A stretch of DNA of 64,000 nucleotides from NCBI GenBank assembly GCA_015956445.1, contig WIUZ02000002.1, forward strand, positions 620,001-684,000, written 5' to 3'. A program made the position numbers and the translations under genes. Under the pieces are notes generated by a model. It was given only the letters and a program-made list of their open reading frames with translations. It had not been told where the DNA came from and did no database searches. Below are positions 25,786-63,680 of this stretch, one piece after another; positions within the stretch are counted from its first letter, which is position 1, and each line of letters opens with the position of its first letter. The DNA is from Thelephora terrestris. Its lineage: Eukaryota > Basidiomycota > Agaricomycetes > Thelephorales > Thelephoraceae.

Positions 25786-28245
25786 TGATCCAAGGATGCA
25801 CAGCCCGACATCCAGTGTACCGTAAAAACGGTTGGACTTAATTTCCGGCGAAGCAGCAAGCGTGGCTTTCGGTGGGTAGTCGAGAGCCCTTCGTGAACAA
25901 TCCCAAAACCTGATGCCCACGCATATAACAAGGGATTCCGGCCCATTCAGTCACAGAACTCATATCTACGCCATTTCTACCGGCCCGGAGAGATAACGCC
26001 CCTCGGAAGACAACGATTGTGGCAGAGTTCAGCGTGCACTTCTCAGTCCGGAAGAGTCACGGATCGTCGCAGGTTATCCAGCAGGACGGGTCGGCTTCGC
26101 ACCCGAAGTGAGAGTAGCCGCGTGAACGCACTGGGTGAAAGTCCCACGGTTGCCACGGATCATCTAGAAAGCTGACAAGTGGCTTCCCAGGGCTGAGGGC
26201 TGGCAAGCCTGACGGCCTCTATCAGGGAAGCGCTGCGGCCCCGAGGGGATGCCCTTGGACCTGGGGAAGAAAGAACAGGCATGCGCGACTAGTCGGCGAG
26301 GGCGTTTCGCTGGCAAGAACCCCGTTGCAGCTTATCCGACTCTCCTGTCGAAGCCGCTACTTTCCACACCGTCCACGGCGCATCTCAGTCTATTACCTAG
26401 GTATATATATATACATCCAAAAATACTGGCCCTCACTTCGGTACATCATACATCACAAGATACGACGGCCGTATGGCATCGTTGTCATACACCACGAGTT
26501 CGTCGTAGTTCAAGCCAGAATCGGAGGCTTCTGCTAGAACCTAGTTCCTCGTCAGCGCCTCACCAAACAGTTGTCGTGTGCCATTACTCACAGAATCGTA
26601 GCCATCGGGTGGGCTCATCATAGTGGTATCGCCAGCTGTCATCCTATACCCCTTCCCGACGACCACTTTGTTCAGCAGCATCGCCTTCCACTCGGAAGCG
26701 CGCACGTTACGCGAAAAATGATCTGACCTGGGAAAAATCAACCAAAGCCGTTAGACAGCAGCCCCGACGACCTCGATGGGTGTGGACACAAACTTGGATG
26801 TAGTTGATGATGTGTATATCCCCCCACCGAACATCCCGGTGCCCATGGAAAACGAGAGATCGAACGAGGACTTCATGATGGAACACAGGGAACACGAAGA
26901 GTCTTGGCAAAAATCTGTCTCCCCTTTGTCTCCGATGTTACAATTTCTCGTCGTCCCGTGCCATCTGCGATTCTCATTTCCGCGAGTCTTCCCCTGCGCC
27001 ATAAAGTTTCCTTTGGCTTCGACTAGATTACTGTGATCGAGTGCACAAATCAGGTGAGGGAACCTACGATGATCAGCGAGACGTACAGGTATTGCTCAAA
27101 GTTTTCGAGGCTCTCTATTGTGCTCACGATCTTGTAAATTGCACGGACTTCAGGGCAATTGTTGTTGTGCTGCCATTTCTTTTTGAACTGTGACGCAACT
27201 AAGAGTATACTTCAATCGTTTCACCGAACACCAGGGGGATTTGCTAGTGGACTGACCGCTCGTGTACCTTTCGTGATCTGTAGGAACTTCGACAATTAAT
27301 GGTGCCATGTAGAAAACTTCGTCACTGCAAGACTGGCAGAAGGAAATCGGATCGATCACTGGCGCCTTGCGACAGCATATGCAGCCATATGTTCCTAACC
27401 TATGGACCTTTCAGTGCAGGTCAACACAGGATGACGAAAAACCCACTTCATATGTGCTTTGGAACAGTAGTGGCCAGTGGCTCCGTTTTTGCCGACGTAC
27501 ACGCGGTTGAAACATTCCGGAACCCAGCAAAACGGAATTAGAGTATCGGGTTGTTGTACAGAAGCTCTGTTGTGTCGCGGGGTCCAATTGTTCAATATGA
27601 TGCTGTTGCGAGGGGGGTTGGCGAATCCAGATCCATTGAAACGAAGGACGTTGGGACTCGCTCCAGGTGTGGTCTCGTCGGTATTCGTCGTGATGGAACG
27701 GCTCAAGGGAGGGCTGGTAGGCGTCGACGCGTTTCCGGTTGCCGGTTGCTTGCCCTTTGCAAGGCTCGCACATCCCTTGCCGCAATATGGATGTACTACA
27801 TCACCGTCGGTGTACCTTGGCCTGATCTTGCAATGCTTTGTAGAGTAAATCGTTCAGCGGAACTCACAATCACGCCCGGAACGCGCGTACTCACATCGCA
27901 CTTTGCTGGATCGGGGGAAGAGCTCTTCTGGGTCATCGCCGTAGCACATTTCTTGGAGCAACAGCGGTAGTAGCCACCTGTGGTCTGGTTCCGTGCTTGT
28001 AGTCTAGAATGGCAATTCTGGGCGGATGCAGGTGAGTCGGCATACTCGGAACCCCACGCGATAAGAATGCTCTATACGCACGACGCACGGCTCTGGCTGT
28101 GGTATTATGGAGGGGGAGGGCGGGTTTGAGGAGCGACTCAAACTTTGGAATCGACTGATAAGGGAGTGCATTGTAAAACGATAGTCCTTAGTCTCCGACC
28201 AAGCAAAAATGTGGCGGACGAGGCGGGGGTGTTAGCGGGGGCGTC
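25786..28245. repeat. inverted repeat, left arm, containing a PARP gene
   Basis: This arm matches the reverse complement of about 38330..40860 with roughly 5-10% divergence by eye. It contains the P1 gene plus about 650 bp of its 3' flank. The arms are 10 kb apart and enclose the first kinase-PARP fusion, P3 and the NLR-like N-terminal gene. They differ by small indels and by an 81 bp insertion in the right arm. Confidence 0.8.
26433..28171 (-). CDS. P1: zinc-knuckle PARP-domain protein
   Basis: ADP-ribosyltransferase-type protein assembled from about eight small exons. In order: SRFQSLSRSSNPP start; knuckle 1 (NCHSRLQARN to CCSKKCA); knuckle 2 (HCKIRPRYTDGD to PYCGKGCA); a linker; knuckle 3 (FCWVPECFN to HYCSKAH); knuckle 4 (GCICCRKAP to CQSCSDE, then APLIVEVPTDHERY); and FKKKWQHNN before the PARP fold. 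The catalytic triad is visible: H in RWHGTTR, Y in GGGIYTSSTTSK, and E in LNYDELVVY, followed by IRPSYLVMYD. CSLCSIMKSSFDL is the family's internal cysteine motif. Start at 28171 is uncertain, because homologous codons (WSETKDY) continue upstream until a 1-base deletion shifts the frame. Likely intracellular; substrate unknown. Confidence 0.8.
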
Positions 28246-29578: not shown

Positions 29579-32500
29579 TCACTCTGTTATCTCCAAACAC
29601 ACACCACTTAATGAGCTCTCGGGTTCCCCCAATCTGGCTCGAGGGCATTCCGGGGTCGGGGCTCCAGAGTACACCACAAGATACGATGGTCGGATCGCCT
29701 CGTTCTTGTAGACAACAAGTTCATCGTAGTTCAGAGCTCCGCCGGGGACCACTTCTGCGAGAATCTAACCCCTAGTTAGCGCACCTATATAAGAACTGGT
29801 CCAAAATTCTCACCGAATCGAATCCCGGGGGTGGTCCAGTCAACGATATGTCGTCGTTAATCAGTTTCTTCCCGTTTCCAACGATAACCGTGTTCAGCAG
29901 CAGCGTCTTCCATTCGGATTCCGCGCCCATGTTCATTGAATAGTCGTTGCACCTGAGGGAAGAAACTTCCTTGTCAGACACAGCGTTCGAGAAAAACCTC
30001 CTCCAATTGGGCAGGGACGAACTTTGATGAAGTGGAAGAGGTATAGATTCCACGTCCGAACCTCCCCCAACTGGTCGCCATCTTGTAGTACTTAATATCG
30101 AACGATTCCCTGATGATACAACACAGCGAGCACCCTGGGTCTGCACAGAGGGCCTCGTTTCCCGGGTCTCCAAGGGTACATTTCCTTCTGGTACCATGCC
30201 ATCGTCGGTTTTCGTTGCCCCGTGGCTTGCCCTGGGCTACAAAGCCCCACTGAGCTTCCACACTTTCGCTATGGCCAAAAGTCGGTAAATTTGGGCGAAT
30301 TTAGAGACAGCAGGGAATCAATCGTACAGGTACTCTTGGTATGGACCCATGATGGCATTCGTGACCACGATCTTGTAAATTGCCTTGACTTCGGGGCACA
30401 CCGTTTCATGCCTCCACGATTGCTTAAATTGCTTCTCGACTGTAGTTCGATAAGTCCCCGTATTCTCCCAGTCAATAGAGTAACATTGACGTACCGCCCT
30501 TGTAATTCCTGTGATCTTCAGGTACTTTGAGGATCCCCGCCATATCCGGCGCAACGTCTAGGCAGGGTTGACACAGAACAGATGCATTGCTCATCGGAGC
30601 AGCACGACAAAATACGCAACCATGTTCTCTCCACCTATTGATGGACCCGTCATTTTGTGAACAGAAACTGAAGAAAAAAACTTGCTTTGCGTGGCTCGCC
30701 GTGCGACGAGTAGTCGGTGGGTCATCCCAAATGATGGACGTGGGCCGAGGAGGCTGGAGAATTGGCGGGGTATCCTCCCGACGAGAGGATCTAGGCAACG
30801 TGCACCGAGGAGTCTGACGAGTCTGCGAAGTTTCAGCCCGACGGGCAGGTTTAGGCAACGCGCATCGAGGGGTCTTGGGAGTCGTTGAAGCCCCATCCCG
30901 GTGGACGGTAACAGGCAACGTGCGCCGAGGATTCTGGCAAATCGGATCTAAAAGGATCTCAGCCGCTTTGAGTCACGTCAGAAACACAACCTTATCAATT
31001 ACCTGAACGGGCTTGGTGAGAATCCGTGTGGATTGGAGGATTCGGTGGAGCGGGGCGATTGTGTACTTTGAGCCGTGCCTCTTCCACGAGCTTTTTCTTT
31101 GCTGCAAGTTTTGCGCACGTCCGACCACAATACGGGTACACTTTGGCTCTCTTTCTGAACCCTAGGAACTTTCTGTACTTTAATCTTTTGTTGCATTGCT
31201 GCAGAAAAAAATCAGATATTGATCAAAGGGTTGTGCCTAACAAGTTACCTCGCACAGAGTCGCCTGTGACCCACCCTCGGATGAGGTGGAACTTTCCCCA
31301 ATAGTTGAAAGGAGTGTGGTAGAGGAGGAAAGCCGGTGGCGAGATAGAGGAAAGATGGATGGTAGCCTCCACCACTTCGTCGCGTTAGACACGTTTGGGC
31401 CCCCCTCCAAACGGTGAAGCACATTTTCTATGCTGGGGCGTTTTTTCGGATGGGGTGCCCAGCACTGCTTCAACATCTTCCATACGCCGTCGGGGAACAG
31501 ATCTTCACGGGGAGGAAGATCCCCCCTTAAGACGCCCACAAGGACCGTCATGTCTGTCTGGTCGTGGAACGGTATGTGTCCGCTGATAGTCTCATATATC
31601 ACCATCCCAAGGGCGTAACAATCCGAGGACGTTGTTGGGCAACTATCCTTGGACCCAAACCGTCGCGGATCGATAAGCTCGGGGCTCATCCACCGTGCCG
31701 TCCCGCCCGGAGTGTACGAGGCTGGCCCTAAAGTGTTCGAGATTACTGTAAGCAGCCCGAAGTCTGCTATGCAGGGGTTGCCGTTCTCGTCTATCAGTAT
31801 GTTTGTCTTGACAGATTCCGAAGTCAGTACGACGGGGAAATCCCTCGGATCATCGAAGACATACGCCCTTGAGGTCCCCATGAATCATTCCTCGGTTATG
31901 TATGTAAATCAGGCCTTTGGTGACGCCCACCACCTAAAGTATTTCAAAATCGTCAACAAATTGAAAACAGCAGAGTCTTGAACAGAGAACCTACGAGGCT
32001 GAGTCGGTCTACCTCTGGATGCGCCTTCACGAAGTCATTGATGTTTCCATTCGCCATCCAATTTGATATCATAGCGAAGCGAGATTTAGATACCGTCACT
32101 CCCATTAGCGGTAGGACATTTGGATGGCGAAGAAATTTCCACGTCACAGCCTCCTTACAAAATTTCTGCAAGGGCCTGTCAGTGCGGTGCTACAGGAGAA
32201 GGGACGACCAGTAACTCACGCAGACTATCTGTTGCAGGTCGCTATCTGCATACGTCCTGACAACTTTTACTGCGACTTCCTGACCACGATAGTGCGCCTT
32301 CCTGACGTCCGCGCACCCACCCCTGAACATCGCATCTCTGGCTATGTCATAGCAAACTGGGATGATCAATGATTTAGGGAGGAGTTCGTGTTTACCGCAC
32401 GTCTTGTACAACAATTTCAGACACTTGTCCCAGGTTTGCAACGGGATTTTGGGCTCATCTAAAGCCTAGTCGATAGAAGATGTCAATGTTGATTTCGAGC

Positions 32501-32713
32501 GGGGTAAGCGAGCGGTGAACGTGCCTCATCTACCACGTCGACCAAGGCTTGCGCATCATCCCGACAAAGGGAATTGATTTTGTCACCTTCCACCACGCTC
32601 GAGACGATTGTATCCACCAGGAAAGGAAATTCATGCGGGGCGTAGTCGCGCCTGATCAATCTGCCACATGCTAAAGCGTCGAGGTTGAGGAGGGGAAATG
32701 GTTGGAGGGGCGA
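29579..32713 (-). CDS. P2: protein kinase-zinc knuckle-PARP fusion I
   Basis: One reading path links a TKL-type kinase to a PARP. Kinase: LACGRLIRRDY leader; SLIIPVCYD; RGGCADVRK; the lysine in EVAVKVV; LRHPNVLPLMGV; the catalytic loop IHGDLKG; IADFGLL; and ARWMSPELI. The kinase tail SSEGGSQATLCE ends at a GTAACT donor. After a CAG acceptor the frame continues as QCNKRLKYR and VYPYCGRTCAK, exactly where other PARPs have SLCE joined to YCxxRPKF. Then come repeated TPRCxLP units, CVFCRAAP, and the PARP with RWHGTRRKC, GRFGRGIYTSSTSSK and LNYDELVVY. The H-Y-E triad is complete. The upstream limit is the first visible exon (acceptor before 32713); the true start is unresolved. Two adjacent genes read separately is the main alternative. 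Confidence 0.7.
30733..30925 (-). repeat. coding minisatellite built from a zinc-knuckle motif
   Basis: Three to four imperfect units of about 60 bp inside P2, each starting near CGAGG on the plus strand. They encode variants of TPRCxLP with basic and proline residues. The other PARPs have one such unit (CRTPRCTLP) as the start of knuckle 3. Here it is multiplied while the YCSxxH half is degraded to SHAK. Confidence 0.6.
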
Positions 32714-33522
32714 CTGGCAATCCACATAAGGTCTACCAGGATGAGGCCAAGGACGTACCGCTTGAGTCCGACGCGTGAGTTGAGGTGGTCATAGCCGAAG
32801 GCTCGCGTTGCTGCACACGTGAAGTGTGGTTAAGGATGGTGGTTCTCTCTCAGCCTGCTAGGGGGGCACGTTGCCTATGGGCGCAGGGGGGTCGTTTGGT
32901 GGGCAGATGTCCAGGCGCTCAACGAGCGCACTGCCCAGCACGTGGCAGTCCGGTGCCATCAGGCAGATTGACAGCGAGCTGCCAACAACGCTAGAGGAAG
33001 CGCAGGCAGCACCTGCGCAACACACCCTGGCTTGAGCACGGTACCCCATCTCAGTGTCTGGGGTCCTCAATGATCTGGGCGATCGAACGAAAAGCGCACG
33101 GCCCGATGGTCTTGAGCTTCAGAATCATGTACTCTGTGTCCAATGTTTCACGCAGAGATTCGTGGTGATACTCACAAAGAATATCGTGCTCCTATATCAT
33201 ACTACGACTCATGATTCTGGGCTGAAGAGCGAAATATTGGATCCCTCGAGCGGAAGCTTAGTTCTCACGCTTAAAGGACTCCCACCGGGGTTGGGGCCAA
33301 GGTTGCCAAGGTTGGCAGTCATGGGCGCGGTCTTCCGGTGCCCATCACTGTATATCTGGATATGATAAATAAGTATAAGTATGCCGGACTTTGAAGGGTG
33401 GTCGGTACCAGTAGCGGTGTTTTCCTTCAAGGGGCGATCACCCTTTGTACTTCCTCCAAAGCACGGCTCTATTCGCTCGGCACCTATGGTACTTATTACA
33501 TTACACCAGGGAGTCCTGGCCC
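32714..33522. other. region upstream of fusion I, 5' end unresolved
   Basis: About 800 bp holding the unresolved first exon(s) and promoter of P2 and the 3' flank of P3. No other gene is recognised. Confidence 0.4.
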
Positions 33523-35259
33523 TCACTTCGGTATATCGTACATTACAAGATACGACGGCCGTATGGCGTCGTTGTCATACACCACGAGTTCGTCGTAGTT
33601 CAAACCGGAATCGGAGGCTTCCGCCAGGACCTGGTCTCTCGTCAGCGCCTCAACAAACAGTTATCGTGTGCCAGCGCTCACAGAATCATAGCCAGCGGGT
33701 GGCCCTGTCAGTTCGGCGTCGGGCGTTGTCATCCTGTACCCCTTCCCGACGACCACTCTGTTCAGCAGCATCGGCTTCCAACCAGAAGCACAGCTGTTGA
33801 ACGAAAATTGGTCTGACCTGGTAAAAATCATGAAGGCTGTTAGAGTGTAGTTCCAGCTAGCTTGATTGATATGAACACAAACTTGGATGATGTTGATGTG
33901 GTGTAAATACCCCCTCCGAACATCCCGGCATTCTCGGAATACGTGAGGTCGAAGGAGAACTTCATGATGCAACACAGGGAACAGGAAGGGTCTGAACAAA
34001 ATTCCATGACCCCTTTGTCTCCGATGTTACACTCCCTCGTCGTCCCATGCCATCTACGATTCTCATTGCCGCGAGTTTTGCCCTGCGAAGCGTAGTTTCC
34101 TTTGGCTTCAATTTTATTACTGTGATTGTGGGCGCAAATCAAGTGAAGAGACTGGCGGTGATCAACGAGACGTACATATACTGCTCGTATTTTTCGAGGC
34201 TCTCCGCTGTGCCTACGATCTTGTAGATTGCGCGAACTTCAGGGCAGTTGTTGTTGTGCTGCCACTTCTTTCGGAACTGCGACTCAACTAAGAGGATGCA
34301 TCAATCATTTAACTGGACACTGGAGCAATCTGCCAGTTGACTGACCGCCCTTGTACCTTTCGTGATCTTTAGGAACCTCGATGATCATCGGCGCCACGGA
34401 GAAAACTTCGTCACCACAAGATTGGCAGAAACAAGTCGGACCGATTGCTGAGGCCTTGCGACAGCATATGCAGCCGTGTGTCCCCAACCTATGGACATTT
34501 CAATGCGTGTTCACAGACGATACAAGACGGTAAAAAAACCCACCGCAAATGAGCTTTGGAACAGTAGTGGCCGGTGCCTCCGCTTCTGCCGACGTACACG
34601 CGCGATGAACATCCCGGAATCCGACAAAGTGGAACTGCGGATTTAGTCCGGTGGGCAGTAGGTCTGTTGTTTTGCGTGGTCGAAGTGAGTCTGCTGCGAG
34701 GATTCGCGGGTCCGGCTCCGTTGGAATCATCAACGATATGACCCGCTCCAGACGCGGTCTCTTCGTCAGTATCTATCATGATAGAGGTGCTTCTGAGAGG
34801 TCTGGTAGGAATTGACCTGTTACCGGTCGCGGACCGGTTGCTCCTTGCACTGCTCGCACATCTCTTGCTGCAATATGGATGTACGACATCGCCGTCAGCG
34901 TACTTTGGTTTTGACTTGCAATTCTGAGGTGGGCGAGCCATTGAGCGATACCCCAATTACACCCGGGGCACGCGCACTCACATCGCACATTGTAAGATCG
35001 AGGAACAGAGCTTGCTGAATCATCGGCGGAGCACATGCCTCGGAGCAATAAGGATAGTAGTCTCCTGTGACCAAATTCTGAGCTTGTGGTTTGGAGTTGC
35101 AGTTCTTCGTGGGTGTAGGTGAGTTGGCGCAGCACACTCGAAACCCACGCGATAAGTGTGCGCTGTACTTACAACACACAATCCTGGCTGCGATTTGGGG
35201 TGGAATGGCGGGTTTGAGGGCCGACTTAAACTTGGGAATCGACTGAAAATGGGGAGCAT
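33523..35259 (-). CDS. P3: zinc-knuckle PARP-domain protein
   Basis: Close paralogue of P1 and P4 with the same exon plan. It begins FSRFPSLSRPSNPP. Knuckle 1 is NCNSKPQAQN to YPYCSEACA, knuckle 2 NCKSKPKYADGD to PYCSKRCA, knuckle 3 LCRIPGCSSRVY to HYCSKAH, and knuckle 4 GCICCRKAS to CQSCGDE followed by APMIIEVPKDHERY. The PARP domain has RWHGTTREC, GGGIYTTSTSSK and LNYDELVVY, so the H-Y-E triad is complete, and it ends SYLVMYDIPK. Knuckle 1 to 2 uses a GTGAGT donor and CTCAG acceptor, with other introns matching the paralogues. Start is ATG 35259, but conserved codons (WSETKAY) lie in frame just upstream, so a longer N-terminus is possible. No frameshift was seen. Confidence 0.8.
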
Positions 35260-38232: not shown

Positions 38233-38292
38233 GTGTGTGCAACCGACGCTACGCCACAAGCCGTCTAACGTTCGGGATAGACATCAATACAG

Positions 38293-45547: not shown

Positions 45548-46888
45548 TTAGGGGCTCTTGTAATTTACGGAACACGACGGTCCGACTGTGTCGTGCCCAT
45601 GGACAACAGGTTCATCGTAGTTCAGAGGTTCACCTGACGCAACTTCCGTGAGAACCTATCACTTTGTTAGTGGGTCCACCGAGGCAAAAAAAAAAACAGA
45701 CAAAGATGCTCACAGAATCGTATCCCGGAGGTGGTTCGGTTGGTGATGTGTCAGCTTGTGTCGGCTTCTTGGCATTTCCAACGACAACCCCGTGAGACAG
45801 CAGATCCTTCCAACCCGAAGCGACGTCCACGATGTTCGGATTGCCGGATCTGAAGTGCAGAAAATAAACCAGGGTGAGGTCGAGGATGACAGGGAGTCAC
45901 CCGTACAGATATTGTTGATGATCCCTCGAGTTTTTCTCTGTGAAGATGACTTTTGCATCGACTTTGAGACAAGCTGTTTTACGCCTCCACGTTACTTTGA
46001 ACCGCAATTTTACTGGCTTCTGATGAGCGTCCAACGTCAGCTAATAGGAAACCGTCGACGTACCACTCTTGTAAGTTCCATGATCTTCAGGTACCTCGTC
46101 GGTCATCGGCGCCCTTATTATTGCCTTGTCTTGACACAAAACCGATATACCGTTGCTCGGGGTAGCACGACAAGAAATGCAACCGTGTTTTCCCAATCTA
46201 GTCAAAGCCTTGTCAATACGGAAATTTAAATCAAGCAAAACAAACACTTGCTGTTTGTGAGCCATAGAACAGTAATTGCTCAGAGTTGCATTCGGGTGGA
46301 CGAACACGGGGAGTGTGCACCTGGGAGTCCGGCAAGTCGGCTCTGACAAAAATGTAGTTCAGCCACGTTGGGTCGCGTCAGAAATTCAATCTCATCGATC
46401 ACCTGAAGAGGGTGGCTGTGGGGTCGGGCGAGCGGTCCTGGGGGTTGGAGGGCTCGTCTGAGGGTTCGCTTGATTGGGGACGCTAAATGCTGCATGCTTT
46501 GCGCATGTCAGACCACAATACGGATACACTCTGTTCCCTTTTCTGAACTTTGGCCTCCGCTTGCATTGCTGAGGGGCACAGTTAAATAACGACTGCAAAC
46601 CAATACTGAGCAAGGGCCGCTGTTTACCTTACACAGTGACTGTCCCCGTTCCTCCTTTTGCTTCGGCCAAGGTTTCTTTGGCCGTGTTGCACACGTCTTC
46701 GAACAATGGTTAAAGTACTGCCCCGTAGCGGGTCTGGGTGCTACAGGCCTGCTCTTGCAGGTCTACAAGAGTGCAGAGAAATCAGCCGCACAAAACAATC
46801 AGTATAACAAGGGGCTTACGGGACAGATTGGGAGGATAACTTGAGGCATTGGTTTGAATTCGTTTTCGAGAAGATCGTTCGGGTTCAT
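45548..46888 (-). pseudogene. P6: PARP-family gene lacking the catalytic exon
   Basis: Family order is recognisable: MNPNDLLENEF and ICP; knuckle 1 (TCKSRPVAPR to NHCSKTCA); knuckle 2 (QCKRRPKFRKGN to PYCGLTCA); knuckle 3 (TCRTPRCTLP to NYCSMAH); and GCISCRATP. Knuckle 4 has lost its second CxxC (VLCQDKA). The exon after the conserved Y-L donor is missing altogether. The splice runs directly to DVASGWKDLL, so the part with RWHGT and GIYTSS, including the catalytic His and Tyr, is absent. The last exon is corrupted (NYDEPVVH, and SCSVNY for SYLVMY). No ADP-ribosylation activity is expected. It might still make a zinc-knuckle protein, but decay of several motifs favours a pseudogene. Confidence 0.7.
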
Positions 46889-48652: not shown

Positions 48653-51600
48653 TTAGAGAGGTTGATACATGACGAGGTATGACGGTCGAACGGCGTCGTT
48701 GTTGTAAACGACCAGCCTATCATAGTTTAGATGACCGGGGGACACTTCGCCGAGCACCTAACTCAAGATTAGGGCGCCGCACAATAAAAACAGCCAAAAA
48801 TACTCACGGAGTCGTATCCAGGAGGTGGTGCTATCAGTGCTTGGTTGCGTTGGGTCAGTTTCTTGCCATATCCAACAACAACTTTGTTCAACAGCATCGC
48901 CTTCCATTCAGAATGGATGTCGACGTTCTTCGAATAGTCGTTGGACCTGCAAGTCAAAACCTCAATATTAGACACGCGTTCACCAAAACCTATAAGATTG
49001 AGCGGAGACGAACTTTGATGAAGCCGACGAAGTGTAGATCCCAGTCCCAAACATCCCTCCCTTGACGTAGAAATCCAGATCATACGAACGCTGAAGTATA
49101 CAGCATAGCGAACACCCCGGGTCGTTGCAAAAGGTCGTGACTCCCGAGTCCCCGATGTAACATTTCCTTCTGGCTCCATGCCATCGACGATTTTCGTTGC
49201 CGGGTTGCTTGTTCATAGCCTTGAATTTTCCCCTAGCTTCCACAGCATCCCTAAAACCGGAAGTTTCAGTAAACTGAGGCGAAGTTAGATATGACGTGAG
49301 GTCACTCGTACAGGTACTGTTGGTATTGTTTTAGGCTCTGCTCGGTGCTGATGATTTTGTATACTGCGCGGACTTGAGGACACGGTGTGTTATGCTTCCA
49401 ACTTTGTTGAAATTGTTTCGCAACTATCATGCGATAAGCTCCCACCATCGGCTAATCGAACACCATCAGCTTACCACTCTTGTAAGCCGTGTGGTCTTCA
49501 GGCATGTTGATTATCATCGGTGCCATTAGCATCGCATTGTCGTGACAAGGTTGGCACAGGATAAACACGCTGTTGCTTGGAGCAGCCCGACACCAGATGC
49601 AACCGTATTCCCCCAACCTGGTCATAGGCCTGTCATTATATGGACAGGAAGCGAGGAAAGGAAAGACTTGCCGCTTGTGAGTAATCGAACAGTATTTGCT
49701 CAGAGTCCCATTGGCGTTAGTGAACGCAGGGAATACGCAATCAGGAGTGTGGCAAATTGTAGCTAACAAAGATTTGATTTCAGCTGTCTAGAGTCGCAAA
49801 GGAAATTGGATTTCATCAGTTACCTGTAAATGTTGTCTGGGGTTGGGCCGGATGGGCAGTCCTGAAGAGTGGGGGGTTCGGAGGGTTCATTGGAGGTCTC
49901 ACTGGAGGTGGACCACTTTTTGCACATCTCAAACCACAATACGGGTACACGATGTCTCCTTTTCTGCACTTTGGTCTCGTCCCGCATCGCTGCGAGACAA
50001 AGATTAGATTACGATCACAAGGTCATTCCGGCGAAAGTCATCGCTTACCTCGCACATATAGTCCACCTGTACCGGACCTTGGCTTTGACTAGGGGTACTT
50101 GCATGCGATGCAGACGAGTCTGGTGTCATTGTCATCATATACCAAGCGTCGTTCAGATAAGGAAGTATCTCCTCCACGCTAGGCCGCGCGCTGCGATCTT
50201 CTAGCCAACATCGCTCGAGTATTCCCCACAATTCATCAGTGAATCCGAGGCGTGCTGCACCCTCCGGTTTCTCCGGCCGAACCCCATTCGTGATGGCATT
50301 CATGACTAGAATGTCCGTCGGGACGTCAACGAAAGGGTGGTGTCCGCATAAGATCTAAGGTAATGCACTTGGACGTTTGCGAAAACAAATTTATTTACAC
50401 TAACGCTTACCTCGTAGATGACCATCCCGAATGCGTAGCAATCGGATTGCGTTGTCGGTCGAGAGCTTTCCTCTGATTGCGGTATCCCAAACGCTTCCGG
50501 GTCTAGAAGTTCAGGGCTCATCCAACGATATGTCCCTCCGGGGGTGAATGGCATCAGGGAATTGATTGAGAACAATGATACTTGGGAGCTCCGAGCGACG
50601 GCACGCGTTGCGGCGCCGTCGATTGCTACAAGGCCGAAGTCAGCGAGACAGGCCCGCTTTTCCCTGTTGATGAGAATATTTGCCTTCGTAAATAAGTGAG
50701 AGGTGTAGAAAGTTAGTTTTTGGGAGATACGTACCCCTTTCAAATCTCCGTGGACGATCTGGAGGTCATGCAGGTACTTCAGGCCACTCGCGACATCAAC
50801 CAACTACAGACCATTAGTCATTTTCATGTAGAGAATTATGGGTAACGCACAAGCATCGGGCGGTTGGCGTGTGGGTACTTCTCGATGAATTGGTTGATGT
50901 TCCCATTATCCATCCACTCAGAAACCATAGAAAACCGGTGTTTGTCTATCGTTACCCCAAGCAGCGGTAATATGTTCGGATGCCGTAGGTGCTTCCAGGC
51001 AACTCCCTCTCGGCAGAACCTCTGCGACGGATTCAAAAATCCATTTACAACGGCGCAAACAGAACACTCACGCTGAGGAGGTCGTCCATATCGCTGGTGA
51101 CGAACATGCGAAAAACCTTGACCGCCACGCGAACCCCTTTGTACATACTTTGCCATACGGTGGCGGAACCTCCATATGCAGCTTCCACAGCGCCTTGTGA
51201 ACAATCTGGGATATACATTGATGTCGGGAGCATCTGGTACCGGCTGCACGCTTTGCAAAGGTCATTGAACAACTTTTGACGCTCCCGATCTTGTTGAATG
51301 TGACTGCCGAGGCGCTATAACTCATTTGAGTCTTGGATTTGGGAATGCGGAAGAGCCTTACGGTGTCTATATCATCAATATACCCCTGAATGTTGCGTTC
51401 TGCATCCCACGGAACCTTCGAGGATGAAGGGGTCGGTGGAGGATCTGGCTCGTGTCGCTGTTGCCGTTGCTGTGTTCCAATAACCGTTGCGGAACCTCCC
51501 GTCCAAAGTGGAGATCCCTCCTGTGTCTCGCGTCGATAAACTGTTGGTAGGCCGTCAAAGTGAGTGTTGGTTAAAGTAACTTTTGGGTTTAACTCACCTC

Positions 51601-52396
51601 CCATGGAACTTAAAACTTCCTGAGGACTTTTACGTCCAGGGACGAACTCCTTCCTCTCGCTAGCTTCTGCCGTCCGATCCCGGGTAACCTCGCGGCTTAC
51701 GGGCGGGAGACTCGTCGGCAGATGCGAGTCTTGGTCCTGTATGCGTCTAGCCTCGTGCTCGACCAAAACAAAACTGGTTTGAGATCGTGTGGGGGAAGGG
51801 AGAGGTCTCGGAGGGCTGTCTCTTGTACCATCAAAGTTGAAGCTGCGCATGAACGTCGTCATGGAGTTGCTTCGGGATCGTGTCAGGGGAAAGAGGAGTC
51901 TTGGGGGATCTTCACTTGTCTGATAGATAGACTCTCCATCGGACTCGGACTCTGAGTCCTCAGTGCCGATGAAACGGGATAGGTATGGACTATTGTTGGA
52001 CGATGATTGCGCCTTTTGGGTGTCCGGGGTTGCTCCGGGGGTAGATTCTGTAGGAGATGCGTCACGTCGGCGCAAAATTCCGCCGAGCCGGCTCTGACCG
52101 CCGGCTTTAATATTTTCAGCAGTCAAACCAGGGCTCAACCTGGTTCGATGCCGCAGTATCTGAGTGTCCACGGTCGCAAGCGGGGGGGTCGTTGATGATT
52201 CCGGGTACTGCCCGGGGATGGACCTGTTATCAGGCGGAGCGGCAGAGACGCTTCGAGACCGCTTCAGGACATCGAAAACGCTTCTCCTGCGACTGTCTCT
52301 TGAGTCGCCTCCAGAATCTCTACTTGAGCGGTGAGTGTCGTCCGAGTAGGATATGGATGGGTTGTTGATTGAGGTTGAAGACTGTGAGAAAACCAT
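48653..52396 (-). CDS. P7: kinase-zinc knuckle-PARP fusion II with altered catalytic residue
   Basis: The N-terminus (about 330 residues) is Ser/Pro-rich with DVLKRSRSVSAAPPDN, a module shared with the NADAR gene. An 80 bp intron (51304..51383) joins it to the kinase: FNDLCKACSRY, GGSATVWQ, VRVAVKVF, LRHPNILPLLGV, VHGDLKGANIL, LADFGLV, YRWMSPELL and LERCWLEDRSARPS. The kinase tail VDYMCE splices to RCGTRPKCRKGD and YPYCGLRCA, then ICHTPDCVFP to KYCSITH, then GCIWCRAAP to CQPCHD. The PARP domain has RWHGARRKC and GTGIYTSSASSK. The third triad position reads LNYDRLVVY, with Arg instead of Glu. Start is ATG 52396; the frame opens further up without an ATG. Probably cannot elongate poly-ADP-ribose and may be mono-transferring or inactive. 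Confidence 0.75.
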
Positions 52397-53920
52397 GGGT
52401 TTGAGTCCCCCTCCTAGTCTGGCGGAGGGTGTAGTGGGTGACCAGTAAATGTAAGGTGAGTTGAAAGAAGATAACAACGGTATTTATTCATTTCACAGCC
52501 ATTCGCGTTCGTACTAGTGCGCGGCTAAGGGCACCTTTCCCCCCTCGGGGCAGGTTGGCCCCCATCTTCGTCTCAGCCTCACCACGTGTTGGACGCCTGG
52601 CCGCGCTCATTTCCGTAATTTTCCGCCGGCTTTCGCAGCCACGCCCCTTCAGCGTTATCTATTGTACCATTGACATATCTGGGACCCCGGATCCCAAGGG
52701 ACACTGCATCTATGCACTAGCTCGCATTCCCAAGCCCCGAACAACATGCACACCGCCGGTACTGATCCCCTCATAGGACTTAAAAGCACGATAAATGGTT
52801 GTCACTCATATTGCGTCCGCCTACTAAATAACTTTAGTTTCGAATCGGGGTGCCTCAGCCATTTGAGCTACTGTGTCGGCTGAACCATTCCGGCTATGGG
52901 GCTGCATCCCACGGAGAATGGTCTATAGTTTCGAAAATAGCTGTCAGTCAGCGCGGTCTTTGTCCCCCCAACTTTTTCCACATCCATTCATGGTATGTTT
53001 TGGACGATCCGGGATTGACCAAATGACTCCTCCGCAGCTCGTGACTGCGGAAATCCCAACGGGAAACATGTGTTGGCTGAAAGTTGGCTGTGGGAAAGTG
53101 ACTAACCTTCAGCTGGATCATCAGAGTGATATTTTGTCATCCACGTGTGCTTCTAGTCGTAAGTCTCGAAACCCTGACTTCAGAGCTGCTACTTTTTTCG
53201 CTTACTCCACCGCCCTCATCGAGTAGGAGGGTAATGATGAGCGGAGGCAAAAAGCGGCGGTGTCACAGGAGCTGGGTCTGCACGCTTGTCCGAGCTACAA
53301 TGCAATGACCCATCGGTAACAAGGTTAGATCAAAGGCAGTGCTGTTTCGGCGATGGGGAGACCCGTTGACGTCTCCAACGTTCTTGGGCACCGTGGATGC
53401 TGTGCTATTCTGACAGTTTACGTTCCATACGACGTGAGAACACGAAGCCACATCAGGGCCAAAGGGTTATGTGTGGAGCTCCTATGAGGATGGGAACAGA
53501 TGTTGGATCATTCCACGGATGTTTCTAAATGACACACCACAGCCGCAGACCCGGAAGCGGTATGAGACGGCGAACCGCTGCCCCCGAACCAAGGCATGAG
53601 ACCTGAGGGCACAAATCCTCAGCGGTGACATGGGCTCGGAAAAACCAAGGAAGCCTGTGGCACTGGCAGGGGCTGCCGAGTAATCTCATGGACATCGCTT
53701 CCCCAACGAAACGGCGAGAGATGGATGCAGTTCTCTGACCGAAGGGAGGAAAATGTGGTAGAATGCCCATTTCATCAGCATCGCAACACAAACGTTCCAA
53801 CTTGGGGAAAGCACGAAAGGTACCACGGACTATCCCAATTTCACGCTAAGTGCGGGGAAGTCAATCAACATACAATTGTTGAACACGCGGAACGTGAGGC
53901 ATAAGCTAAGAGCGTAAACA
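52397..53920. other. no recognised gene (1.5 kb)
   Basis: Holds the presumed promoter of P7 and the 3' flank of VPS25. Short frames only. Confidence 0.4.
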
Positions 53921-54697: not shown

Positions 54698-54907
54698 GAA
54701 TGGTATGAGATCAAGAGACTTGGGTGCAAATGTCCGTGACCTGATTGGCGAATGTCGAGCCCCCTTCAAAACGAAAGTAGATTCCTGCCCATAAAAGAGA
54801 AAAGTACATGTAAAATGCTGATGAGGGTAATTAGGGTATGTGTCAATGCGAGTACATAAATTACAGGTTGAGGTATATCCAGCCCCAGCCGCATAACCTT
54901 CACGGTA

Positions 54908-55905
54908 TCACGCGCGCTTTCTCAACTTCCCCACCCTTTCTGAATGCGTGCCATAGGTAACCAAGTAAACAGGCCGAATCGCTTCGTTGGTATACACGAC
55001 GGTCTCCTCGTAGTTGAGATCTCCTCCAGTAACTCCCATCACCTGCACAGAACAGACAGGTCAGCTCGGTGGTGCAGTGCGGAACCGCAGGGCTCTCCAG
55101 CACTCACGGAGTGGTACCCAGAGCCGCACGGATTGGCAGAAGTGTCGGTTTTGGATAGTTCTTGGGGCTTTCCATAAACGACGGCGTTTACGAGAAGAGC
55201 GCGGGATTGTAATTTGCAGGTCGCGAGATCCCTGAAGTAGTCGTCCGCCTCTGTCCCCTTAGTTAGTCACTGAGTTCTTAAGAAAAAAAGGAAAAAGATC
55301 CTACTTGAGGAACATGCGGACGTGTAAATCCCGCGCCCGAACCTACTAAACTTGTGCTTCGATCCTAAAGGGACGGTGTCAGCTGAAAGGCCTATGGCAA
55401 GTGTGAACCCAAGAAGCCACATACCAGACTTTGCGAGATCGTAGGAACTACGGATGATCCCACACAGATTACACTTGTTGTTGTTACATAGTTCATCATT
55501 TATCTTCCTGTCGCCCAAGGCGCATGCCCTGTTCGTCCCGTGGAAGAACAAGCCTGAGGTGTCGACACCGTCACCAACCTCGGCTACGATGCTCGAGCTG
55601 ATTGGAACAATCATGAATCTTCAATGGTGTGAGAATGACCCCGAATGTGGCACTCACCGGTACGAGTGGTGCTCCCCCATCTCGCTGGGCGTTTTGAGGA
55701 GCTTGAATATAGATCGAACAGTAGGCGTCGACTTGTTTGGGTGCTTCCAACCCTCGTCGAAAAGCTTCTTAACTGAGAAAAAGACAGAGCGTTAATGACT
55801 GTTCCCCAGGAATTTGGAAGTCCCCTTACCGTATTGATATTCAGGGTCATCTTCGTTCAACGCCTTCAACCTTTGGTTCTTCTTCAGGATGGATCCGAAC
55901 CTCAT
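54908..55905 (-). CDS. P8: compact PARP-domain protein without zinc knuckles
   Basis: Short ADP-ribosyltransferase-type gene of about six exons. It begins MRFGSILKKNQRLK, then KKLFDEGWKH and TVRSIFKLL, which align with the FKKKW...AIYKI segment of its neighbours. The core has FFHGTNRACALGD, CNLCGIIRSSYDL, then RFGRGIYTSACSS spliced to KADDYF, and DLNYEETVVY near the end. H, Y and E are all present. GRFGxGIYTS-C-SSKADDY is close to the standard form of the family, and closer than in its neighbours, so this gene may represent the ancestral stand-alone type. There is no N-terminal cysteine cluster. Start is ATG 55905, close to the divergent NADAR gene at 56490. Confidence 0.8.
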
Positions 55906-56489: not shown

Positions 56490-57547
56490 ATGGCTTCGCC
56501 AAAGCCCCCATCAGACCCAAGCAGCTGCCCATCCTCTTACAATCCCACCGATGTTCTTGGTTCACAGGACGCGTCCGGCACAGAGTCTGCAGGCGACACA
56601 AAAGAGAATCGCACGAAACGTGTCGCCAATGTCCTGAAACGATCTTTGAGCGTATCTGGTGCCCCGTCCGATAACAAGTCCACTCACAAGGAGGACCGAC
56701 GAAGATCGTTGACCCCCCCGCTTGTGACCGAGGACATGGACACCCCGATCGCACGGTATTGGGCCAGCATGAGCTCCGCTGAAAACCCCGACGGTTCGGG
56801 GTGGCTAGGCGGAATTTTCGACCGTCGACGAAGTGACACATATCCTCCATGGTCCTCCGGAGCGACCGCGGGGTTTCCGAACTTTCCGAATCATATCGCT
56901 CAGCACTGGCTCGCAAGTAACAAGATCTACTTCTACCATAAGCATGAGCCTTTCTATGGGTTCACGAACTTCTCACCCCACTCCGTGGTGTACAAGGGCA
57001 AGAAGTACCCGACGAGCGAACATCTCTTCCAATCTTTCAAGGTACGCTACAAAGATTTGACACGGACCTTTGTGAGGATTAACAACACCACGCCCTAGTT
57101 CACACACAAGCCCAAGCTCGCAGAGCATATCAGAACGTGCTCCTCCAGACCAAGTGTCGCATTTTCCGAAGCCCGAAGGTTTGCTCCTGAAGTCCGGGAA
57201 GACTGGGGTGATGAGAAAGTCAAAATTCAGGCGGCATGTCCTCCCCTTACCTTAACAGCCACAAGTCCTTATGCGCCTCTCTGCACAGATGGAAACCACG
57301 ATATACAACAAATTTATGCAACACAAGGATATCAGACGTCAACTACTGGCTACAGGGGATGCAGAATTGATTGAGGTTTGTGCGACGTGTGGATTCTGAC
57401 ATTCACGAACTACAATGGGCTTATGGATCACCGTAGAATTCTGACAAGGACTCATACTGGGGCTGTGGGGCAGATGGAAAGGGACAGAACGAGCTCGGGA
57501 AGGCTCTTGAACGCCTCCGCACAAGATTGCGTAAAGAGCGACGATAG
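56490..57547 (+). CDS. NADAR-domain protein (ADP-ribose hydrolase-like)
   Basis: Four exons: 56490..57041, 57099..57230, 57289..57375 and 57449..57547 (289 residues). Residues 1-130 are disordered and contain NVLKRSLSVSGAPSDN and SLTPPLVTED, shared with P7. The NADAR (YbiA-like) fold starts IYFYHKHEPFYGFTNFSPHS, then YPTSEHLFQSFK, LAEHIRTCS, EARRFAPEVREDW, YNKFMQHKDIRRQLLATGD, and ends DSYWGCGADGKGQNELGKAL, all hallmark blocks. NADAR enzymes are known to remove ADP-ribose (for example from guanine bases) and to process ADP-ribose-linked intermediates. Among ADP-ribosyltransferase genes an eraser or immunity role is plausible. The second intron needs a GC donor (57231). Start is the first ATG of the frame. 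Confidence 0.8.
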
Positions 57548-57898: not shown

Positions 57899-59406
57899 AT
57901 GTTTGGTTCCGGTAAACCACAAGCCCGGGGTTCCTCATCGTCTTCGAAGGACAAGATGTGCGATTTTTGTCAGCAACAACCAAAGTTTCCGTGTGTTTGA
58001 ATTCCTCGTATCGATAAAGTGTGGCCGCTTGACCTTGTGGACCTGGATTGGTTTTAGACCGTATGATTATTGCAGTAAAGCCTGCGGTGCCAGGGCCAAG
58101 TCCTCTTCAAAGGGCCCTACGATGTGCAAGGTATGGATATGGGTCGTTTATGGTCATTGGATCCAAGTCGTTGATTGGTGGCGTCAGAACTGCGGCCAAA
58201 AGCCGGTTTACAAGGGCCACCAATTCTGTGGCAAGGGTTGTGCAGGTTCATGGCAGTCGGCGAACGGGTCTAGTATGTCCTCCAGTTGGTACGGCCAGCC
58301 CTACTACAACCAGCAACGATCGTGGGGTCCAGTGCAACCTCCCCGCCAGCAGCAATATCTTCAGGGTCACATTCCTGGTTACCATCAGGACCAGGGTCAG
58401 GGCGGTGAGACTCTTTACTACCCTCCCCTCGACATCTTGGAAATCTAACGAATTCGGCTGTGTAGTCGCAGGGATCTTCAGCGGTCTCCTCAAATCTCTC
58501 GTCTCTCCGACCCAGCCCAGGCCGCAATCGCCCAAACGACGACCTACCCTACCCAGTCCTCCTCACACGTTCCACGCTTCGGGGTCTAATTCACGGGATC
58601 CTCTGAGGAACGCCCCGTTGAACCCTCCAGACAACTCAACGTTCTCCGGGGTGGGCGGTCGAACGTCGCCACGATCGCCTGCACCGAGAAGCCCTGGGTC
58701 GTCCAGTCAACAGTTTCACACTCCGACTGCTTCTCCGACTTTAGGAACTCAAGATCTGGGCACGGGCGGTCCGACCAATGGGCAACGCGCCTCATTGTCT
58801 CCGCCTTCACCGATGTCACAGATCCAGAGTTCTACGTCAGGCCAGGGTTCCACCGCAAGTGACATGGATACGAGCCCGCCAACCTACACCCCCGTCGACG
58901 ATGCCCTCCCCGACGATGACGAAAACATCGATCTGAGCGCATACCCAGACGAAGATCCAACACCGACTTCAAACAATGACAACAATGGACCCAAACCTGC
59001 CCGACCTCCGACTCAGGGGCAAGGCTCGGCTCGGGTCACTCTCCCTCCTCCGGGCGATGGAAGGCGTGGCGGTAGGCCTCTGGATCCAAATGACCCCAGT
59101 TATTCCGCTACGTTGAGATACATCACGGCCAATTCAAGCCAGCCCCCAAAGTGTCGGTTGAAAGGGTGCAACAACCCCGTGTTTGTGGACAAGTATACCA
59201 GAGGTCGGAGCGACTATTGTTCCCAGAGGCACCGAGAGTAAGCGTTTGGTTTTGCCCTCTTTGGAGTCGCACTCCACTAACGAATCGAAAGGGAAGCGGT
59301 GAACTCTAGGCAGGTAATCCCGTGTATTATGTGTGGCATCATGCCCAGAAGTAGGGAAGATCACTTCTGTTCGAGGACATGCCGTGACGCAGCTTGCCAC
59401 GCTTGA
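57899..59406 (+). CDS. stand-alone FCS-like zinc-knuckle protein
   Basis: About 400 residues, no catalytic domain. It begins MFGSGKPQARGSSSSSKDK, then knuckle 1 CDFCQQQPKFP to YDYCSKACGA, knuckle 2 NCGQKPVYKGHQFC to GKGCAG, and a long Pro/Ser/Gln-rich disordered middle with an acidic patch (DDDENIDLSAYPDED). Then come KCRLKGCNNPVF to DYCSQRH and, over a last intron, CIMCGIMPRSREDHFC to SRTC. Introns: 57991..58057, one near 58129..58199, one near 58411..58469, and one near 59240. I know this type as a common agaricomycete family of unknown function. Its knuckles are the same kind as those heading the PARPs here, so it may share partners with them or have donated the module. Confidence 0.75.
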
Positions 59407-59929
59407 GCTTACATCCCCTCGATCCCACTAGAACTCTCGCTTTTCTCCATGTCTTGTCCCATGTACACTAGGATTGCTACGCACTTTGCTTTTTCGTATG
59501 AATCACAGAGTGAGATACGGTTACCGAGAAACAAGGAGCGCCCGCTGTGACTGTCTTGAGCGGAGTCGCCACCTACGCGCCTTCGCGCGCTCAGCGCTCA
59601 TCTCCGTCTCTAGTGCGAAGGCTCGTTGGACGCGTCGGGGTCACTTCCACGCCCTTGAGGTATAGCTGCTGCATGAGCAACCAGATTGATCAAACCTTCT
59701 GCCCCATCCTTCGCAATCCCGCGGCATGTCGAACCAGAGATTCTCGAGCCCCCCCCTCCGCTCTGAACTCGAGGCTGGATTCCAACCTAAGCACTCGAGA
59801 TTTTACGACCTTCAAAACAGTCCGACGAAGTACAGGATAGATATGACCTGAGGGGAACAATGTTTTACAAAGAGCAGGATTACACAAGTGAACCGGCAGG
59901 CCACTGGCAGCACACAAGCAGTTGAGCCT
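59407..59929. other. intergenic between convergent genes
   Basis: About 520 bp with the dispersed short repeat at 59744..59790. No gene is seen. Confidence 0.4.
59744..59790 (-). repeat. dispersed short repeat, copy 3
   Basis: Contains GAACTCGAGGCTGGATTCCA; about 85% like the copies at 40506 and 48080. Confidence 0.5.
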
Positions 59930-61300
59930 CTACTCGTGGAGAATAGAATTGCGCCCGCTGGATCCCGTGGGGGATCCTTTGGACAGGCTGGTGGAGGATT
60001 TGGGTTTGGAGTACAGTATGAGGTACTTGGGTGTGATTGCCTCTGCTCCCGACACGTAGACCAACGGTCCCTCCTCCCGCTGTAGACGGATAGCGTCAGA
60101 ATAAGACATGGGCACCAGGAGCAGTGGCTTACCGACGAGCAGAGCCCGGAGAAAAACGGAGCTTTCTGTCGGGGAGGTAAGAGGTTCACTTCACACGCGA
60201 GCATCACCTTGTAAGGTGAACTCGTGGTAGACACCGCCCATTTATCTGCCAACGAAGGATTCAGATACGAATAGATACCGGGGCCGAATCTGACAGAGAC
60301 GAGTAAGCGGGATACCCTTCAAGGGGCCGTGTGTCTTTTTCCACTAACCGCCCTGTGTTTGACCTGGCATCAAACTCGAATTCGGTAAACGCGGTTAAGA
60401 GGATCGCACAGATCCCGCATCCCGACCAGTCGCAGAATTCTGTGCTGTTCGTCCCGAGGTCGCAAATACACTGGGTACTGTGAAAGGTTTGGATTTGGCG
60501 TGGCTTTTTGACTGCGATGAGTTTGTTGCTAGGATATCAAACAGGTCAGCTAAACACAATCTTCCCACGAGCAAGGGGACTAAAACCGTACTGATAAGCA
60601 TCGCGCGATTTGACCATGTTAGGCGGGAGGCGAATTTCGTAGACCTTTCCGATCTCGACCGGCTCAGGCCCCTTCCACATATGGTTGAAGTTATCGATAA
60701 CTGGGACGTCGTCAGCGGGTATCCGTTGTGGGTTGGGTTTGGAACATACGTGAAGCCGCCTGGGGGTCTTGCAAGCTTAGTTCCTTTAATCGTGGTTCGG
60801 TCGACCTTCCGAGAGAGCTGTTGCACCCCAAACACAACTCATCGATCGCTTGGGGTTGTTTCTTACATTCCACACACGGGGTTGCGTGACCGTCCTGAAC
60901 AGCGTCTCTGTGGAGCCAGTAAGATATTTGTGGAGAAGTTACAAAAAGAGTGGAGATTACCTTGCATGCCCAGGTCCACAGTATCCGCTGAACGTCGACT
61001 TGCCGGGATAGTTACAAGGTGGGTACTTGCATAATGGCTGACTTGCTCGTGCACAGGTTCTTCCGCAGTATGGATGGACGAGACCATTCCACTCGACGAA
61101 CCTGGGCCGTTTCCCACAGACCTGATTTTACAGGACAGAGACCGCCAACGAGAATCAGAAGGTGGGACGAGGAAAATATGATCGTGGCCACTGACCTCGC
61201 ACAAGCCCCCCTTCTTAGACGAACTCTTCTGACTTGAACCATACTCTGGACTGTGGGCCCGTCTGGAGCCTCCGCCACCGTAATCTCTCCCGCGGTCCAT
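59930..61300 (-). CDS. P9: divergent PARP-domain protein (HST variant)
   Basis: Starts ACC-ATG-GAC (MDRGRDYGGGG). Knuckle 1 is LCEVCGKRPRFVEW to HPYCGRTCA. A second knuckle (CNYPGKSTF to GYCGPGHA) lies one frame off, implying a frameshift or unmodelled junction near 61010-61030. Then come PCVECKKQPQ to LCLGC, NHMWKGPEPVEIGKVYEI, and the ART fold: QTFHSTQCICDLG, FCDWSGCGIC, NTGRFGPGIYSY, ADKWAVSTTSSPYKVMLACEV and GPLVYVSGAEAITPKYLILY. His and Tyr are kept. The third position, Glu in classic PARPs, appears to be Pro (GPLVY). This belongs to a separate basidiomycete PARP subfamily. An N-terminal hydrophobic extension from 61393 is possible but less likely given the good context at 61300. Confidence 0.65.
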
Positions 61301-62027
61301 GGTTTGAGTGTTCTTGCCTTTGCGTTGACTGGCATTCATCAGTAAGATGAGGGGGATCATAAACAGCGACGCGGAGAGAAGATAGCCGTACATCAAGGAA
61401 CCGCGTGGCCGTCAGGGATCTTATATTCGGTCCGAACTGAAATGGCGGTGGTTCGTCGTTTTTCTCTCTTTTCGAGCGGTTCGGTTCGTTTTCGAGGACA
61501 AAGGGCCTTTGATCTCGAAGTCGTTGCCCGTCCACCGGAATCCTTCCTCTCAACGGGGGCAAAACAGCCTCAGCGGCTGGGCTGTTGCGTCTTTGTCGAA
61601 TTGTCGGCTGTCCCGCACGTGGCATCAAGTGCCGGTGTGACGTTTGGAGGATTGCTGGACCCCTGGCACTCAACAATGACAGGCGGAACGGGTGCTGCTC
61701 GGCGATGCGTGGCTTGACGGGCTGTGACCTTTCTGATGCTTGTGAATTCTTTTGGGCCCACTGATTGGTCTTCAAAGAGTGTGCTGCGCACCGCTCGCTG
61801 CCATCCTATCCAACTAGGCTCACCATTGGCTCGTGAGCAGGGATGCTTCCCCTCAATCTGGGACACCGGATGCTTTCACTGGCGAAATCTCCCATGCACA
61901 GGTGTTGTGATGGGCGCCTCGAATTCCCGCTCATATACCCATACCTCGTGTATCTGCCCCCTCTTCCCCTCAATTGACCGCCACGCTTTCCGACCGTCCA
62001 AGACCGACCCTGTCGACTTACTGAACG
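61301..62027. other. divergent intergenic region between P9 and P10
   Basis: About 730 bp between head-to-head genes. Frames of 90-180 codons on both strands overlap here but lack motifs. Confidence 0.4.
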
Positions 62028-63680
62028 ATGCTCAATCGCCTTTTCTCCAGGAAGAAGACTGTCGTACGAAGATCTCCCAAAGTACTAGAAACTGCGCCAG
62101 CGGTCGACCCCCCCATCTGTCCTGTAAGTTTGTTGCGATACTAGTTGTTTCACGTGGCTGATTCTATCCTGCAGAACTGTAACATCAGGCCTGTAGCAGC
62201 TAAACCTACCGCAGGAGAGTTCTTCGATTTCTGTTCAAAGGGGTGCGCAACGAACGTGAAGAAGGGTAATCTTAATTCTCTGTGTGAGGTATACAACAAA
62301 TCTTGCTCAGCGTGTCCTGTGATCGTCATCTAATTTGGTTCTCGTAGTACTGCAAGCAGAGACCAAAGTTCAAGGACGGAACTAGAGTACACCCGTATTG
62401 TGGTCGAAGATGCGCGAGGTCTGCAGCGGCTGACTCAGCCAACCTTCCGCCGAATCCTCCAAACCTCGCAGACTCTCTTTCAGTCCTGTCCCAGACGGTT
62501 GCCTCAAGTGATTGATAATATTGATTCCCATCGCGATCCAGGGTTGCTGATATTCTGTTGTTGCCAGGTTTGTTTTGCCAGGATCCTGATTGTGTACTCC
62601 CTGCATTTATGGATACGAACGGGACCCAGAGCAATTACTGCGTCCTTCACAAAAAGCAGGTTTCTTTCCTCCCAACCTCCGTTCAAATGAATGACCAGTC
62701 CGTGAGTAGGTTTAGGGAACAAGGTTGCATCTCTTGTCGTGCTGCTCCAAGTACCGACAAGTCCGTCTTGTGCCAACCTTGCCATGATGATGCGCTCAGT
62801 AGGGCGCCAGCACTCGTTCGAGTACCTGAGGACCACAAGAATTACAAGGGCGGTACGTCGACAGCGTTCTGTTGGATTATGATAGGAGCTTATCGGAATT
62901 CAGTTCAAAAACAATTTACGCAAACTTGGAGGCATAAAACTACATGTCCTGAAGTCAAGGCAGTTTACAAGATCGTCGTCTCGGAGGCGAGCATGACACA
63001 ATACCAACAGTACCTGTACGAGTCGTTCCCCGTTCTATCGAACCTCACTGAACCTTTTGTCGCAGTGACAGTGTGGAAGTTGCGGGAAATTATGTGGCCA
63101 TGGGCAAGTCACGCGGCAACGAAAACCGTCGATGGCATGGAACGAAACGGAAATGTAGACTCGGAGACTCAGGGAACGAGACGTTCTGCGCCGACGCGGA
63201 GTGCGCGCTGTGTAACATCATTAGAACCTCCTTCGATCTCAAGTTTTTCAAAGCGGCCACCGGTTGGGGAAGGTTCGGGCGTGGGATCTACACTTCCTCG
63301 ACTTCTTCAAAGTTTGTCTCCGCTCGACCGAATGGGTTGAGGAACGCGCGTCTGACATGGGAGTTTTGACTTTCAGGTCCAACGACTATTCGAAGAATCT
63401 GGGTGTTAGTTCTGACTGGAAGGCGCTGCTGCTGAATAAGGTTGTCGTCGGGAACGGCAAGAAGCTTACCCAGGATGACACGACACTTACAGAACCACCT
63501 CCGGGATATAATTCAGTAAGTGTTCCAGTTCTAAGTCCATTTTTCCCAGTGAGTGCGCTAATCAGGAGCTAGGTTCTCGCAGAAGTCGTCCCCGGCGGTG
63601 CTCTAAACTATGATGAGCTCGTCGTTTACAACAACGAGGCGGTCCGACCGTCGTATCTCGTGATGTATAAGAGCCCTTAA
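62028..63680 (+). CDS. P10: zinc-knuckle PARP-domain protein
   Basis: Starts MLNRLFSRKKTVVRRS and PPICP with a GTAAGT donor. Knuckle 1 is NCNIRPVAAK to FFDFCSKGCA, then NSLCE; knuckle 2 YCKQRPKFKDGT to PYCGRRCA; knuckle 3 LFCQDPDCVLP to NYCVLH; and knuckle 4 GCISCRAAP to LCQPCHD, followed by APALVRVPEDH. WRHKTTCPEVKAVYKI leads into the PARP domain with RWHGTKRKC, CALCNIIRTSFDL, GRFGRGIYTSSTSSK, NDYSKN and LNYDELVVY, ending SYLVMYKSP at TAA 63680. The H-Y-E triad is complete. Knuckle 2 to 3 appears to use an acceptor 3' of the family position (TTGCCAG), because the usual CAG is mutated. Closest neighbour in sequence is P5. Confidence 0.82.

Follow-up and report, generated by a model that had tools for sequence, protein, structure and literature searches.

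A stretch of 64,000 nucleotides from Thelephora terrestris (C12:620001-684000, on a contig of 3,455,736 bases; hereafter the window) contains an island of PARP-type ADP-ribosyltransferase (ART) loci, among which a gene of the NADAR family is found. The cluster is real, larger than first noted and mostly intact. At 26.4-63.7 kb of the window we identified ten ART loci by tblastn with family members combined with splice-aware alignment, which reproduces P0001 (388/388), P0035 (419/419) and other NCBI models, and the island extends past the window edges. Birth-and-death expansion of an Agaricomycete zinc-module ART around an ancestral block, with the copies acting as writers and some erasers of one system, is the explanation that we favor, at roughly even confidence.

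ART loci in the window and beyond

The first-pass annotation of this DNA had listed ten loci with an ART signature or its remains, a NADAR gene among them and two kinase fusions, all of which were recovered. PF00644 scored above its curated cut-off in 8/10 ART loci, the exceptions being loci 6 and 9, and the H-Y-E triad was kept in seven, the others being the loci at 48.7 kb (Glu replaced by Arg), 60.0 kb (doubtful) and 45.2 kb (missing). The NADAR gene, which matched PF08719, and a zinc-module gene without an ART are interspersed among these loci. Models were built for 23 ART loci across C12:539-791 kb, of which ten fall in the window and the other 13 outside it; 18 of the 23 keep H-Y-E if the doubtful 60.0-kb locus is not counted. 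This interval represents 0.6% of the genome, yet 23 of the roughly 31 ART loci of this kind found genome-wide lie in it, as do six of the seven NADAR loci. A whole-genome search with P0035 placed at least eight or nine further ARTs on C58, C60 and C2, figures that were counted by eye and are lower bounds. C58 carries two ART copies, at 1096.6 and 1181.5 kb (85 kb apart), whose identity to P0035 over one exon is 93%. A distinct PARP for which WGR was matched lies on C56, and there is a single macro-domain match on C14.

Locus 1 (26436-27936, minus strand), with zinc modules, ART and H-Y-E, encodes P0001 (388 amino acids), to which the spliced model is identical (388/388); a 397-residue model matched PF00644 at 5.4e-13, and one or more first exons may lie further upstream. 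H-Y-E was also kept in locus 3 (33526-35023, minus; PF00644 3.3e-14), locus 4 (38639-40142, plus; 7.5e-14), locus 5 (41326-43302, plus; 8.5e-15), locus 10 (62028-63677, plus; 1.4e-14), which encodes P0035 (419 amino acids, 419/419), and the short-type locus 8 (54953-55782, minus; 2e-10; 'YEETVVY'), whose model has no zinc modules. An apparent stop codon in locus 8 was rejected, as it falls inside a GTGAGT intron donor. Locus 6 (45204-46858, minus) is a relic in which the zinc modules and the ends of the ART remain and the HGT...GIYTS stretch (H and Y) has been lost; its 226-residue front part had no Pfam match at E<=0.01. Locus 9 (60002-61665, minus) is divergent, with zinc modules, HST, GIYSY and no clear catalytic Glu, and also had no Pfam match at E<=0.01. 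The aligner's H-Y-E call for this locus was discounted, because the model contains one frame break. An ART fold, whose absence the annotation had named as one finding that would speak against it, was recovered in the predicted structure of P0035, the one protein folded, and the nearest fold among the matches listed was tankyrase/PARP. DarT was not among the structure matches listed for this model, a listing that does not exclude a DarT-like fold.

The modules near the ARTs are N-terminal and follow the pattern C-x2-C...[YF]C-x3-[CH]. They had been described as zinc knuckles, a label that we withdraw, since the CCHC pattern C-x2-C-x4-H-x4-C was not found in single open frames of at least 40 amino acids from 24 kb of the window onward. 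The separate zinc-knuckle gene of the annotation exists as a gene in which no ART was found (58033-59430, plus; an additional exon at 59323 encodes the second module), and its modules are likewise not CCHC knuckles.

Both kinase fusions read as protein kinase, zinc modules and ART. Locus 2 (29657-32398, minus; H-Y-E) has its kinase at about 31.5-32.4 kb; in locus 7 (48659-52483, minus) a leader within 51068-52483 precedes a kinase at about 50.2-51.2 kb, and the triad is altered (HGA, and Glu replaced by Arg). In the proteins, which were joined by eye from exons, locus 2 matched PF00069 (5.4e-40) and PF00644 (4.6e-12), and locus 7 matched PF07714 (2e-36) and PF00644 (5e-13). In both fusions the frame is continuous from the kinase into the zinc module (junctions at about 31.2 and 50.0 kb), which is divided by an intron after 'CE'. 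A kinase gene array at C12:737-766 kb is related to both ART-fused kinases.

The NADAR gene and its copies

The NADAR gene (56490-57547, plus; introns 57042-57098, 57208-57265 and 57376-57436) reproduces P0121 in 200/200 residues; this NCBI model begins at 56769, inside the gene. Its PF08719 match (3.6e-34) reached 118.8 bits against a cut-off of 35.1. The Glu at the catalytic position is kept in TGDAELIE, the counterpart of E125 of the Phytophthora enzyme, a position inferred by aligning the protein with 8bau, offset by two residues, and it is present in three of the five modelled C12 NADARs. NADAR places were found at 552.7, 554, 570, 677, 747 and 749 kb of C12 and once on C1. Those at 552.7 and 570.5 kb are divergent NADAR-like loci, the latter with Phe in place of the catalytic Glu; the 747-kb copy has Gln there.

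The residues coded at 56490-56936 form an N-terminal leader that the window NADAR has in common with kinase-ART locus 7 (44% over 104 amino acids, blastp 1e-15; DNA 72% over 155 nucleotides). The same leader is present in the environmental relative P0136 (61%).

Synteny and copying

A block at C12:539-560 kb consists of a 539-kb ART, a divergent 541-kb ART, RTA1, COQ4, a 548-kb zinc-module gene, a 554-kb NADAR and a short 557-kb ART. The zinc-module ART gene is widespread in Agaricomycetes, and in a quick tree, from which six T. terrestris loci were left out and whose support values are SH-aLRT (a Shimodaira-Hasegawa-like approximate likelihood ratio test) only, the 539-kb ART clusters with genes of other Agaricomycete species, apart from two expanded clades (SH-aLRT 96). 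Zinc-module ART and NADAR lie on the same contig in 23 of the 28 species in which both appear among the best 120 matches of each query, linkage being counted by eye and contigs of equal size being taken as the same contig. The other five are T. ganbajun and L. shimeji, together with three Mycena whose only NADAR among the matches listed is a distant one. Near-adjacent ART/NADAR locus tags were seen in Cerrena (014319/014316), Amanita phalloides (007645/007648, with COQ4 at 007651), Tetrapyrgos (009884/009881) and Jaapia (40054/40058), while in Mycena kentingensis ART and NADAR stay together and COQ4 is on a different contig. Chance linkage was rejected: with an assumed genome size of 30 Mb, and with only the 23 species that have both genes on one contig entered, it would account for about 1.1 of them. 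The block at 539-560 kb is an old synteny block that has been retained, with copies spread around it.

Copying inside the cluster is apparent at several scales. Locus 4 is an inverted near-copy of locus 1 (360/388 amino acids identical to P0001; DNA 92.8% over 2130 nucleotides), and the segments at 41.0-43.3 and 76.6-78.8 kb are inverted near-copies of one another. The order at 54.9-61.7 kb of the window, short ART (minus), NADAR (plus), zinc-module gene (plus) and divergent ART (minus), is the exact reverse of the 541-kb ART (plus), 548-kb zinc-module gene (minus), 554-kb NADAR (minus) and 557-kb ART (plus), with RTA1 and COQ4 absent. Both ART pairs of this mirror block are sisters in an ART tree without locus 6, in which long branches were flagged (557, 559, 674 and 680), and are among each other's best non-self matches.

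Outside the island, an inverted repeat at 9634-23969 of the window has two 7,164-nucleotide arms with an 8-nucleotide spacer and carries glyoxal-oxidase-like frames. Its arms are 100% complementary, and so perfect a match may stem from an event of very recent date or be an artefact of the assembly.

Constraint and relatives

For the ART domain, ten pairs gave ratios of nonsynonymous to synonymous substitution rates (dN/dS) of 0.13-0.41, the pair with Glu replaced by Arg gave 0.48, and one further pair was saturated; the N-terminal parts gave 0.27-0.58 (12 pairs). The ART domains are under constraint, and no positive selection was seen at the gene-wide level. The earlier description of the cluster as fast-evolving holds for copy number and the N-terminal half and does not hold for the ART domain.

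In the quick tree, proteins from environmental sources branch from within the T. terrestris copies, so the clades are common to relatives. For T. ganbajun at least one ART was found among the best 120 matches. Of 21 environmental entries checked, 12 have at least 388 amino acids, and eight of these leave less than 252 nucleotides for introns; the genes of T. terrestris contain six to eight introns, whose median length is 58 nucleotides, and the environmental relatives therefore look like spliced transcripts.

Origin of the cluster and rival explanations

According to the expansion that we favor, copies would have multiplied round an ancestral block of zinc-module ART, divergent ART, COQ4, zinc-module gene, NADAR and short ART. 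Most copies would be active as ADP-ribosyltransferases, with the variable zinc modules at the N terminus picking the target and the kinase fusions adding a signalling input. Known NADARs strip ADP-ribose from guanine, and those copies that bear the Glu may likewise remove ADP-ribose. The cluster would then contain the writers of a single modification system together with at least some of its erasers. Several observations weigh against this. The catalytic Glu has been replaced in two of the five modelled C12 NADARs (by Gln and Phe), and the kinase-fused ARTs at 668 and 771 kb both carry Arg in place of Glu. The NCBI model P0002 (window 29657-35023) links loci 3 and 2 and omits the intervening kinase, which weighs against the fusion at locus 2; P0002 itself looks like a chimera of the two ART loci. 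The NADAR tree, from which the 552.7-kb NADAR, P0121 and P0136 were left out and in which the bootstrap is not settled, does not settle the subfamily of the 554- versus the 677-kb gene, and the block copy therefore rests on two of four genes and their order. Finally, COQ4 is on the zinc-module ART contig in 19 of 24 species among the matches listed, likewise counted by eye, as often as NADAR. The linkage is consequently that of an old synteny block and does not single out ART and NADAR, whose pairing may be synteny alone. The writer/eraser system proposed by the first-pass annotation stands as far as the clustering of ARTs with NADAR is concerned; this is no proof of partnership, and a coupling of the two is plausible.

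The COQ4 result, obtained with a gene unrelated to ADP-ribose, favors a less probable but serious rival, in which ART and NADAR are neighbours without partnership: NADAR would be a YbiA-type enzyme of flavin damage control beside the ART by old synteny, both being copied in a duplication-prone region. Fungal NADARs are placed near flavin-biosynthetic ones in the accessible part of PMC11543638, and the best match of the window NADAR among solved structures is E. coli YbiA (2.3e-26). That same enzyme, however, acts on guanosine-ADPr RNA according to the available portion of PMC11833690, the mirror block kept ART, NADAR and zinc-module genes and dropped COQ4 and RTA1, the kinase-ART leader is present on the window NADAR, and 6/7 NADARs stay in the cluster. 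We regard as unlikely a cluster for defence or self-recognition in which ART toxins with recognition modules are held by NADAR as in DarT1-NADAR. The toxin/antitoxin logic is established for that system (accessible part of PMC11543638), and kinase fusions, growth in copy number, relics and the faster N-terminal half would fit, whereas the lack of gene-wide positive selection, a nearest listed fold that is not DarT, and two fungal-immunity reviews that do not mention PARP in their available portions argue against it. It is highly improbable that the duplicates are mostly silent and decaying: one window relic, fragments of the locus 9 type at about 768, 778 and 788 kb of C12 and the loss of the catalytic Glu in several copies point that way, but the triad in 18 of 23 loci, the constraint on the ART domain and the intron-free environmental relatives do not. 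A bolder version of the expansion, which we put forward with considerable doubt, is a eukaryotic multi-gene system of reversible ADP-ribosylation in which kinase-coupled and zinc-targeted ARTs would act on nucleic acid (guanine) or invader targets, and NADARs amplified along with them would reverse this. Such a system would serve in conflict or self-recognition, with parts swapped within the cluster between NADAR and kinase-ART genes.

Comparison with known systems

The cluster ARTs resemble the PARP/ARTD catalytic domains of tankyrase, PARP4 and PARP3 in ART fold, H-Y-E motifs and PF00644. They differ in their N-terminal C-x2-C...C-x3-C modules and in having, after HGT and before GIYTS, a group of Cys residues (C-x10-C-x4-C-x2-C) that sits elsewhere than the zinc of tankyrase. 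WGR, PRD and UBCc had no Pfam match at E<=0.01 in the ten window models scanned. Fungi are said to have only PARP clades 1 (WGR/PRD) and 6, the latter represented by 6A (UBCc), in the accessible part of PMC2964712, and these domains were not found beside the window ARTs. In agreement with the first-pass annotation, which knew of no fungal cluster like this, no description of one turned up in the literature searched, including the accessible parts of PMC2964712, PMC11125620, PMC9503650, PMC12881547 and PMC10197012, most subscription papers lying outside the search.

With DarT1-NADAR toxin-antitoxin pairs the cluster shares an ART beside a NADAR; unlike them it is eukaryotic, many-copy and not an operon, has no known toxicity, and contains ARTs that are PARP-like rather than DarT-like among the matches listed. 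The cluster NADARs agree with NADAR/YbiA in PF08719 and, in three of the five modelled C12 copies, in the Glu at the catalytic position, and differ in having several copies per cluster and a leader in common with a kinase-ART gene. The roles of eukaryotic NADARs are described as unclear in the available text of PMC11125620, and the cluster provides a defined gene set with which to ask whether they erase the products of adjoining PARP-type enzymes. Compared with the two fungal clades of the 2010 survey (PMC2964712, as far as accessible), the kinase-ART fusions and the Agaricomycete ART type with its different domain layout are new, and together with the NADARs they make the cluster a testable candidate for a writer-and-eraser system in fungi.
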